The notes under the pieces are model-generated. The model was not told the origin of the DNA, did no database searches, and worked only from the letters and a program-made list of their open reading frames with translations. Position numbers and translations under genes: made by a program. Below are positions 17,796 through 50,507 of a DNA stretch of 64,000 nucleotides, one piece after another (within the stretch, counting starts at the first letter, position 1; each line of letters starts with the position of its first letter). Source of the stretch: Prevotella sp. Lineage in GTDB: Bacteria; Bacteroidota; Bacteroidia; Bacteroidales; Muribaculaceae. Where the stretch lies: the NCBI GenBank assembly GCA_023662865.1, contig JAMPIK010000002.1:1-64000 (forward strand), given 5' to 3'.

Positions 17796-19118
17796 TTACT
17801 TGGCGGGAGCTGCGGGTTTGGGCATGGGAGCGGTGGTACCATTGGCCGCGAACTGTGCAATCTGCGCATCGGTATAGCCGTAAGCCTTCAAGATTTCGTC
17901 TGTGTCCTGACCGATTTCAAGAGGAGCCGGAGCATATTCAGGCTGATAGTTACTCATTGTGAACGGGCAACCTACGGTTACGAATTCGCCTACTTCGCCG
18001 CCTTCGTTGATGCGGACAAGAGTGTTACCGTCATAGAGGCTTTCGTCGGTCATCACTTCCTTGGTTGAGAGCACCGGACCTACCGGAACACCGGCTTTGC
18101 CGAGGATGTCAGTAACCTCATATTTTGTCTTGTCGGCAGTCCATTCACCGATACGTTTGTAGATAGCCTGTTTGTTACGGTCGCGCGCATCGGCAGTGTT
18201 GAACTTCGGGTCGGTCAACCAGTCATTGAAACCGGTAGCCTTGCAGAAGAGTTCAAAATCTTTTGCACCACGCTGAAGCACGATGTAAACATAGTTGTTT
18301 GCATCAAGCTCGGAGTCGTAGCCACCGGCCGGTTTGCACTTGTAAGTCCAGCCAAGCACGCCGCCGCCTTCGGTATTGCCGGAACGAGGCACACAGTCGC
18401 CGAACTTGCCATCGGGATACTGCGGGAATTGGGTAAGGTAGCCGAGCTTGTCGAGAGTGAGCTGGTCACGAGTCTTGATACGGCAGAGGTTCAAGCAGGC
18501 GTTGTGCATACTCTGATATACATAGCAACCCTCGCCGGTGCGTTCACGTTGCTGCAGAGCAGCGAGCAAGCCGATAAGCAGGTGCATACCGGTGTTTGAG
18601 TCACCAAGCGCAGCACCGCTCTGTGTCGGGATGTTGTAATCGCCGTCAAACCAACCGGTAGTTGAAGCGGCGGCGGCGGTTACCTGTGCGATAGGCTCGT
18701 AAGCCTTCAGGTCTTTGTATTTTGAAGAAAGCGGGAAACCCTTGATTGTACCATAGATACATTTGGGGTTGATTTTGTGAACTTCCTCCCATGAGAAGCC
18801 CATTTTATCCATTGCACCCGGGTGGAGGTTCTCAACGAAGATGTCGGCGCTTTCAATCAACTTGGTAAGAATAGCCTTACCGTCGGGAGTCTTGCCGTCG
18901 AGGGCGAGCGACTTCTTTGCGGAGTTGAGTTGCAGATAGTAGTATGAAGGCAGATTGGGGTCAAACTGCAATTCTTTACGAGTGGCATCGCCTACACCCG
19001 GGCGCTCGATTTTGATTACCTCGGCGCCAAGCCAAGCAAGCATTTGTGTACAAGAGGGTCCGGATTGTACTTCTGTGAAGTCGATAACTTTGATTCCGGA
19101 AAGAGGTGCTGTGTTCAT
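17796..19118 (-). CDS. frc: Formyl-CoA:oxalate CoA-transferase
   Basis: A 440-residue class III CoA-transferase that moves CoA from formyl-CoA to oxalate. The start GIKVIDFTEVQSGPSCTQMLAWLGAEVIKIE is typical, with Gln18 at the position of the family's conserved glutamine. The catalytic aspartate is Asp173 in AALGDSNTGMHLLIGLLAAL, near the Asp169 of the Oxalobacter enzyme. The tail (about 425-440, Ala/Pro/Lys-rich) is longer than usual. It is the first gene of the frc-oxc-AEC operon. The 190-bp upstream gap to the divergent TPR pseudogene must hold its promoter, but I see no clear TAnnTTTG box on this strand. Confidence 0.95.
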   Translation of the reverse strand: MNTAPLSGIKVIDFTEVQSGPSCTQMLAWLGAEVIKIERPGVGDATRKELQFDPNLPSYYYLQLNSAKKSLALDGKTPDGKAILTKLIESADIFVENLHPGAMDKMGFSWEEVHKINPKCIYGTIKGFPLSSKYKDLKAYEPIAQVTAAAASTTGWFDGDYNIPTQSGAALGDSNTGMHLLIGLLAALQQRERTGEGCYVYQSMHNACLNLCRIKTRDQLTLDKLGYLTQFPQYPDGKFGDCVPRSGNTEGGGVLGWTYKCKPAGGYDSELDANNYVYIVLQRGAKDFELFCKATGFNDWLTDPKFNTADARDRNKQAIYKRIGEWTADKTKYEVTDILGKAGVPVGPVLSTKEVMTDESLYDGNTLVRINEGGEVGEFVTVGCPFTMSNYQPEYAPAPLEIGQDTDEILKAYGYTDAQIAQFAANGTTAPMPKPAAPAK

Positions 19119-19315
19119 AGTATATATAATTTAGATTGTTAATAATTTCCATCACACGGATGCAGACAGCCTTTTTTCAAGCTGCGTTTGATTTTACAAC
19201 GCCCTTGCAGAGAAAAAGTTTGCAAATTGTTTAAAATAAAAAAAGTTAAAAACTAACGGTGATTTGTACGGACGTCTAAATATTTATAATTTTGCAATTA
19301 TTTTTGCACTATCCT

Positions 19316-36805: not shown

Positions 36806-36874
36806 ATTAAACAAGCTCTTAGTTATAAAATTGATTATGTTGCAAAAGTAATAAAAAATCGGGGAAGTGCAAAA

Positions 36875-36968
36875 CACAACAACGGCGTGCCTCGCGGCGC
36901 GCCGTTGTTGTGTCGTAAAAATTTCGACTGAAACTAACTAATTAACCTAATATCAACATTTATCTATT
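36875..36968 (+). repeat. 94-nt structured intergenic element, copy E1
   Basis: A 13-bp hairpin (36875-36887 with 36900-36912, stem CACAACAACGGCG) and a 12-nt loop are followed by a short second stem (GTCG/CGAC) and a 37-nt tail at 36932-36968 starting AACTAACTAATTAACC. It aligns without gaps to 50263-50356 with an identical tail. Five stem pairs differ between the copies and all are compensated. It lies in a divergent gap upstream of the TonB-domain gene. It may be an RNA leader, a small RNA or a miniature repeat. Confidence 0.7.
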
Positions 36969-37167
36969 TTACCTTAAATCTTAGCCAAACCAATGACTTG
37001 TGTCTTTCATAGCGACGCCGTACGGGGAAGTTTTCTTTTCTTTTGTCGCTTCCTTTGCGGCTGTCTTACATACATAAAACGCCCGCTCACAAAAAAGGTT
37101 CGGGAAACAGCAAATTTTTTTGAAAAAAATTATTACTTTTGTGAGTTCAAACAAAAATTAAGCCACA

Positions 37168-37629
37168 ATGAACAAGCTTACTTTATACCTAATCGCTTGG
37201 CTATTAAGCGTTCCGGCTTATATTCATGCAGATATAATCAAAGAAGAGATTCTTGAGCAGACGGCGCAAAAAAGTGAATCGGTGCGTCAACCTGTACCGG
37301 AAGAGAAAATATTCACAGTATGTGAGGTGTCGCCCAATTTTCCCGGAGGTACCACTGCGATGATGAAATTCATCTCTGAGCAAATGCAATATCCGGAAGA
37401 AGCCCTTCGGAACGGTATTGAAGGCAGAACGATAGTGCAGTTTGTCGTGGAGAAAGACGGAACTATAAGTAACGTAGAGACAGCACGCGGCACAAATACG
37501 GTGCTTGATGAGGAAGCCCTGCGCATTGTGAAAGCAATGCCCAAGTTCACACGCGGTACAAACAACGGCATCCCCGTCCGCTGCCGATATTTATTGCCGA
37601 TAACTTTTAAACTTCCCGGGAAAAAATGA
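37168..37629 (+). CDS. TonB C-terminal domain protein
   Basis: A 153-residue protein with a signal sequence or anchor (MNKLTLYLIAWLLSVPAYIHA) and a complete TonB C-terminal domain (about 55-150). The domain shows FPGGTTAMMKFISEQMQYPEEALRN, then GRTIVQFVVEKDGTISNVE and VLDEEALRIVKAMPKF. It lacks the Pro-rich spacer of a classical TonB, so it may not span the periplasm. In Bacteroidota such short proteins occur as periplasmic binding or signalling modules. It stands alone, 200 bp after E1. Confidence 0.8.
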   Translation: MNKLTLYLIAWLLSVPAYIHADIIKEEILEQTAQKSESVRQPVPEEKIFTVCEVSPNFPGGTTAMMKFISEQMQYPEEALRNGIEGRTIVQFVVEKDGTISNVETARGTNTVLDEEALRIVKAMPKFTRGTNNGIPVRCRYLLPITFKLPGKK

Positions 37630-50055: not shown

Positions 50056-50507
50056 TGTTGATTTTCGTTAGTATTATATTGCATTAAGTAGCTGTTCAAA
50101 TTCAACCTCCGAATAACAAAAATAGCGGATCTGAAATTAAAAAGTTACGAAAGTATTAAAGTGATTGCAAAGTTACGACAAAAATATTAAACAAAAGAAT
50201 ATATTCAGTTAAAAATCACAAATAAATGTTGACGTATAAAAACGTATAAAAACGTATAAAAACTACACTGCGGCGTGTCTCCCGACCTGCCGCAGTGTAG
50301 TGTCTTGTAAGTGACAAATAACTAACTAATTAACCTAATATCAACATTTATCTATTACCAAAAATCTTCTTTTATCATGAATCTTTGTTTTGAGTAACAA
50401 AGTGCTTTATCAACCTTGTTACGCTATTATAACACCGCTTGTGTTGAAAAGGTTTAGTGGGTTTGCAAAAAAAATACTAACTTTGTAAAAAATTTTTTCT
50501 CGCGGGT
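50056..50507. other. Divergent intergenic region with tandem repeats and element E2
   Basis: About 450 bp. The left part is AT-rich and should hold the promoter of the minus-strand secreted protein. Three exact 10-bp copies of ACGTATAAAA (50232-50261) run directly into E2 (50263-50356). A TAACTTTG box at 50478-50485 could be the -7 element of the DUF2723 operon, leaving a very short leader if translation starts at 50508. Confidence 0.5.
50263..50356 (+). repeat. 94-nt structured intergenic element, copy E2
   Basis: The hairpin 50263-50274 with 50289-50300 (CTACACTGCGGC/GCCGCAGTGTAG) can be extended by a G-U pair to 13 bp with the same 12-nt loop as E1. A short TGTC/GACA stem and the 37-nt tail at 50320-50356 follow; the tail is identical to E1. 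It lies about 150 bp before the DUF2723 gene. Confidence 0.7.

Follow-up and report, generated by a model that had tools for sequence, protein, structure and literature searches.

Two intergenic elements of 94 nt, E1 (36875-36968) and E2 (50263-50356), are present in the window, the 64-kb stretch of DNA analyzed here, and raise the question of what role would join hairpins of different sequence to an identical tail. As noted in a preliminary description of the locus, the elements align without gaps, each is situated in a gap between divergent genes, and the 37-nt tail AACTAACTAATTAACCTAATATCAACATTTATCTATT is the same at 36932-36968 in E1 and 50320-50356 in E2. The chance expectation for a second such tail in the window is 0 matches. 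Five pairs (2, 3, 4, 7, and 8) differ between the 13-bp stems, with compensation in every case. Compared to shuffled sequences, the stems of E1 and E2 gave folding z-scores of -7.5 and -7.0, respectively, on the plus strand and -6.0 and -6.1 on the minus strand. Several stem pairs are equally stable on the plus strand, and at pair 13 E2 has G-T on the plus strand and A-C on the minus strand. A structured 5′ leader, a small RNA, and a mobile repeat had been offered as explanations, among which the analysis upholds the small RNA and speaks against the other two. With a probability of roughly 0.78, E1 and E2 are interpreted as paralogous, stand-alone sRNA genes on the minus strand which belong to a genus-wide multicopy family, are controlled by an alternative sigma factor, and produce RNAs whose core pairs with mRNA start regions.

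A third copy of the 37-nt tail was not found by tail search elsewhere in the 2.03-Mb genome that includes the window. The same search in relatives, proposed initially as a check, revealed further copies in genomes of the same genus: genomes G028 and G018 each possess two copies in which the tail is identical or two mismatches removed. The tail is identical in three species and matches at 35-36 of 37 positions in two further copies. In an alignment of six copies from three species, comprising E1, E2, and the two copies each from G028 and G018, 13 of 18 stem pairs were altered on both sides and 92.6% of cells paired. The covariation score was 0.667 compared to 0.262 ± 0.051 for shuffled controls (0/500), which leave the relatedness of the copies in place, and was ≤0.27 when the structure was slid. 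The covariation of nearly unrelated stems around an invariant core in six copies from three species is hard to explain otherwise, and bears out the earlier suggestion of selection for structure. Conservation is not confined to the 94-nt segments and reaches beyond the right-hand end of the tail as far as ~37101 and ~50455. There the six-copy alignment comprises a conserved AAAATCTT, a variable stretch, and then, on the minus strand, AAC(C/T)TTT followed after 17-18 nt by GTTnTAT.

A covariance model of the E1/E2 form, here termed type A (model R1), identified further true copies in genomes G087 (two) and G070 (one). Weaker matches to R1 in many genomes (E 1e-8 to 0.1) were considered as unrelated terminators, an idea that was dropped when most proved on reading to be a second form of the family, type B. 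This form consists of the core TTTCATGATGTTAGGTTAGTT, then TAAAGTATTATGGAAAACAC, and then a compensated hairpin in which 12 of 17 pairs were altered on both sides among 21 copies. The type A core is shifted, with UUGAUAUUAGGUUAAUUAGUUAGUU where type B has UUUCAUGAUGUUAGGUUAGUU. In a third form, found in G083 and G084, the type A core is coupled with another terminator, which has a T run. Members of the family are 105-200 nt in length. A type B model (R2) matched 110 of 111 genomes of the genus at E ≤ 1e-5, with 1-16 copies in each, and 46/46 near-complete genomes of the genus; the sole exception genome contains an exact-core copy beside a run of N. By contrast, 392 other genomes of the order gave no match to R2 at E ≤ 1e-4 with strict filters. 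A search with the 21-nt core TTTCATGATGTTAGGTTAGTT permitting ≤2 mismatches matched 87 of 397 genomes, 84 of which belong to the same genus, and only three isolated matches were outside the genus but within the same family, the one listed having two mismatches. The core is identical in copies from dozens of genomes. The genome under study possesses a third gene, of canonical type B (G000:C11:137990-138100), with GAAC-N18-GTTATAA upstream. A variant core, ATTCATGATGTTTGGTTAGTT, was observed in several genomes and is doubled at a spacing of 27 nt at G008:C4:28232-28279 and G097:C50:8617-8664. The proposed Rfam scan matched no family with either type A or type B at gathering and permissive thresholds, sub-threshold matches being chance hairpins, and a scan of the window detected a single tRNA elsewhere.

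The elements were viewed originally in plus-strand orientation, which was incorrect: the hairpin is predicted to terminate, at the 3′ end, an RNA of the minus strand that is transcribed from a promoter to the right of the tail. Of 50 family members, 47 have an AAC-N17/18-GTTNTA pair at a constant upstream position when read on the minus strand, whereas 0.4 were expected, with a maximum of 3, in shuffled upstream sequences. The hairpin loops on this strand are of the GNRA type (GUGA, GCGA, GGGA, and GAGA), and G-U pairs outnumber A-C mismatches over the stems when read in this direction (72 vs. 32). The type B 5′ helix UUUCAUGAUGUU:AGUAUUAUGGAA similarly holds invariant G-U pairs, where the opposite strand would give A-C. 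Diverged copies in other species possess a plain intrinsic terminator at the minus-strand 3′ end, for example ACGGCCGAUGUGAAUCGUCCGUUUUUUUU. Between the element and their start codons, the genes at 37168 and 50508 on the plus strand have TAnnTTTG-type boxes themselves, and they therefore need no leader from the element. Taken together, the promoter pair, the GNRA loops and G-U excess, the G-U pairs of the 5′ helix, the terminators, and the separate boxes of the plus-strand genes favor the minus strand. Two features of a stand-alone sRNA gene can be discerned: an upstream promoter of its own, at sequence level, in the form of the promoter-like pair, and a GC-rich hairpin followed by a 3′ T run, which is clear in E2 and the diverged copies and weak or absent in E1 and two further loci (L005 and L006). 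A structured 5′ leader of the plus-strand genes, in which the hairpin would precede a translation-enhancing tail, was rejected as very improbable because -7 boxes belonging to these genes themselves are found past the element and the flanking genes vary between copies. The hairpins do fold well on the plus strand too, and the plus-strand tail of type B, AACTAACCTAACATCATGAAA, resembles a Bacteroidota start region. Nevertheless, the promoter pair is positioned on the other side with fixed geometry, the T runs are on the minus side, and a reading frame begun at the ATG of the type B tail runs for a few codons only. The ATGs at 36993 and 50377, to which attention had been drawn, are unsupported as gene starts.

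E1 and E2 thus are predicted to be the 3′ halves of sRNA genes of ~165-200 nt on the minus strand, in which the original hairpin corresponds to the terminator and the original tail to the 5′ core. On this strand the promoter boxes come first, followed by a 5′ stem of variable sequence, the invariant core, a short linker, the GC-rich hairpin, and a T run (Table 1). The genome sequences show the anatomy of the gene, its strand, and its distribution, as well as selection on the structure and the core and the fixed canonical locus that is described below.

Table 1. Features of the predicted E1 and E2 sRNA genes (window coordinates).
Feature	Position	Strand	Evidence
E1 sRNA gene, predicted transcript ~200 nt, inferred ends	36869..37070	-	Promoter boxes, core, terminator, alignment with relatives
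E1 -35-like box GAACCTTTT	37093..37101	-	AAC-N17/18-GTTNTA in 47/50 members vs. 0.4 in shuffles
E1 -10-like box GTTTTAT	37074..37080	-	AAC-N17/18-GTTNTA pair, 47/50 members
E1 variable 5′ stem-loop region	36990..37065	-	Type A 5′ segments folded: stem in each, sequences differ
E1 conserved core, comprising the 37-nt tail and AAGATTTAAGGTAA; probable seed or region of protein binding	36932..36982	-	Identity among copies
E1 terminator hairpin, minus-strand GCGA (GNRA) loop	36874..36913	-	Inverted repeat, covariation at 13/18 pairs, strand asymmetry
E1 TTTTG after terminator hairpin	36869-36873	-	Sequence
E2 sRNA gene, predicted transcript ~165 nt, inferred ends	50257..50423	-	Same kinds of evidence as E1
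E2 promoter stretch	50415..50455	-	AAACCTTTT 50455-50447, N18 spacer, GTTATAAT 50433-50426
E2 5′ stem-loop GTAACAAG...CTTTGTTAC	50394..50422	-	Fold of 5′ segment
E2 conserved core, 37-nt tail plus GAAGATTTTTGGT	50320..50369	-	Identity among copies
E2 terminator hairpin, GGGA loop	50262..50301	-	Inverted repeat, covariation, strand asymmetry
E2 TTTTT after terminator hairpin	50257-50261	-	Sequence

The strict promoter motif occurs six times in 464 kb of the genome under study compared to 0.4 in shuffled sequences, and three of the six occurrences are the sRNA genes. The same AAC-N-GTT motif is present at 19221 (minus strand) in the window, 103 nt before the gene at 17796-19118 whose product is a CoA-transferase, Frc-like by eye; the location suggests that this gene may share a sigma factor with the sRNAs. 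Elsewhere in the genome, at G000:C22:125929 (minus strand, in L091), an intergenic promoter of the AAC-N-GTT type precedes a 5′ hairpin and a terminator that is GC-rich and has TTTTT. This locus lacks the family core and is a candidate for a further sRNA.

The genomic position of the copies bears on the proposal that the elements are miniature mobile or REP-like repeats. Up to 16 copies occur per genome with some in tandem, type A copies reside at different loci in different species, and one copy is found on a predicted viral contig, all of which fit mobility. Among the type A copies, only one in G087 shares a neighbor, sufB, with E1, and non-canonical copies generally are scattered. However, the canonical type B copy is divergent from an envelope operon in 10 of the 13 genomes examined. 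The operon encodes a small membrane protein with a PDGYFD motif, a small secreted Spy-like protein, and an alpha-2-macroglobulin-like protein, the latter two assigned by eye; the Spy-like protein had no Pfam match. The operon proteins have diverged to just 26-53% identity between species, yet the copy beside them has kept its place, so that at least one member of the family is old and occupies a fixed locus throughout the genus. Moreover, identity among type B copies is 33% in the promoter spacer and 76% in the core region, a pattern at odds with the transposition of most copies as a block. A sharp-ended unit moved as a block therefore was not evident: the promoter boxes are kept at fixed spacing around an unrelated spacer, conservation stops at the terminator, and local duplication with occasional transfer suffices for the copy number. 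The mobile repeat was rejected on the basis of this unconserved spacer beside a conserved transcribed core, and is held to be highly unlikely. Three or four type B genes follow one another in tandem, ~135-180 bp apart, at G134:C4:80082-80459, G077:C28:37778-38300, and G105:C110:26260-26552. The viral contig (L108:2799; IMGVR_UViG_3300006197_000176) carries its single type B copy with a promoter, and the type A core was absent from the viral contigs searched.

In the proposed mode of action for the minus-strand sRNA genes, each would be driven by an ECF-sigma-like promoter (AACyTTT, 17-18 nt, GTTnTAT), and would be transcribed in stationary phase or under stress by means of an alternative (ECF) sigma factor. 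In the transcript, a 5′ stem that varies between copies would be joined to an invariant core that is mostly unpaired (UGAURUUAGGUUARUUAG...) and to the GC-rich, GNRA-capped 3′ hairpin at which transcription is predicted to end. By analogy with FopS and GibS, the core may pair in trans with the translation-initiation regions of several mRNAs and repress them, and base pairing with mRNA starts is the favored action. Expression, the sigma factor, and the targets are in this respect inferred features of the model. The type A paralogs E1 and E2 probably have partners that differ in part from those of canonical type B because the type A core is shifted. The core alternatively might be a very short open reading frame within an sRNA or a leader: type B reads AUG AUG UUA GGU UAG and type A AUG UUG AUA UUA GGU UAA, each with start and stop in frame, and the variant at L010 converts UAA to UGA. 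Nonetheless, identity runs well past the stop and upstream of the start, the codons show no synonymous variation, and the second copy in G087 alters the sense of a codon, which leaves this the least credible of the alternatives.

Potential targets were sought in 337 start regions from 464 kb, or ~23% of the genome under study. Duplex energies at these regions were no better than those of shuffled seeds, and start regions resembling the complement of the type B core were not enriched. The strongest predicted site was in the yebC leader at -30.3 kcal/mol, compared to -21.7 ± 1.7 for shuffles, the lowest of which was -25.7 (0/60). Here, in the pheT-yebC gap (G000:C22:92622-92642), 21 nt are complementary to the type A core with two G-U pairs. 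A weaker site (-23.5) is present in the yebC leader of G087, and the site is missing in G028, G018, and G070, all of which have type A cores. The yebC leader therefore was left unproven as a target, the 21-nt match being confined to this species among those examined. FopS pairs with the translation-initiation regions of susC; the genome contains only two full SusC genes, one with a 10-nt match, CTAAACTAAC, at -25, with no overall enrichment. The lack of enrichment of mRNA pairing sites is consistent with the alternative that the minus-strand RNA presents its core to a protein as a decoy or scaffold in the manner of CsrB or 6S. Moreover, a 21-nt core identical across dozens of genomes and the many copies per genome fit protein titration. 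Against this, each molecule holds a single core with no repeated motifs, FopS and GibS provide a precedent for base pairing within the order (PMC11697453, PMC7366714), and no RRM_1 protein, the known class of partner, was detected in the genome under study. The RRM_1 search used Pfam with a positive Bacteroides control, and a diverged or unassembled gene is possible. Overall, protein binding is considered unlikely, albeit the most substantial of the alternatives to mRNA pairing.

The predicted mRNA-pairing sRNAs resemble systems characterized in Bacteroides thetaiotaomicron. The FopS family consists of sRNAs of ~65-70 nt with canonical sigma-ABfr promoters, is stated to be deposited in Rfam, and has a member on a phage (PMC11697453), which is paralleled by the type B copy on the viral contig. 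Although the architecture is similar, the family described here is longer at 105-200 nt and has AAC-N17/18-GTTNTA in place of the TAnnTTTG (sigma-ABfr) promoter of FopS. Furthermore, the FopS partner RbpB is an RRM protein, and no RRM_1 protein was identified by Pfam in the present genome. The relationship to FopS is therefore best viewed as a likeness and not as membership. GibS is a stand-alone trans-acting sRNA with a conserved 5′ seed, expressed from a single conserved locus and induced by GlcNAc (PMC7366714, PMC12596196). The family shares its stand-alone character, a likeness drawn from the description of GibS and not from an Rfam match. Permissive Rfam scans with types A and B matched neither FopS nor GibS, the scan having no positive control for the FopS model. 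The core may share its origin with the GibS and FopS seeds. PM2, the promoter motif of GibS, is a non-canonical, near-palindromic -30/-10 motif with TGTT at -10 that is found at stationary-phase and oxidative-stress genes and was proposed to be recognized by ECF factors (PMC7366714, PMC12596196). The family promoter, AAC...(T)GTTNTA, corresponds by description to PM2 in being near-palindromic with (T)GTT at -10.

As judged by sequence, the sRNA gene family is real and well supported, new to the RNA libraries searched, and of a known kind. Sibling sRNA arrays such as Qrr, OmrA/B, and LhrC consist of paralogs with an invariant core and variable terminators, some in tandem, but differ from the present family in phylum, promoters, and chaperones. 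No description of sRNAs in this bacterial family was found in the literature searched, which is weak evidence as coverage was incomplete. On balance it seems probable that the genes constitute an undescribed, genus-defining multicopy sRNA family with an ECF-type stress promoter that is independent of FopS and GibS, with a 21-nt core invariant over ~100 species at 1-16 copies, and that E1/E2-like copies in a few species have evolved a second core and hence a second target set or protein partner. Almost everything known about sRNAs in Bacteroidota comes from Bacteroides. In a single genus of Muribaculaceae-like gut bacteria, the family provides a large natural data set of several hundred copies from >100 species, in which the core is invariant, the promoter class is defined, and a founder locus is fixed beside an envelope operon. 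Whether multicopy sRNAs are a general strategy of the order, and which partner freezes the core, are now testable.

Two minor observations concern the surroundings of the elements. Past the E2 terminator, ACGTATAAAA occurs in three exact tandem copies at 50232-50263 of the window. The E1 gene is bracketed by a 12-nt inverted repeat, TTATTACTTTTG, at 36843-36854 and 37130-37141, both arms of which resemble the -7 boxes of the two divergent genes.
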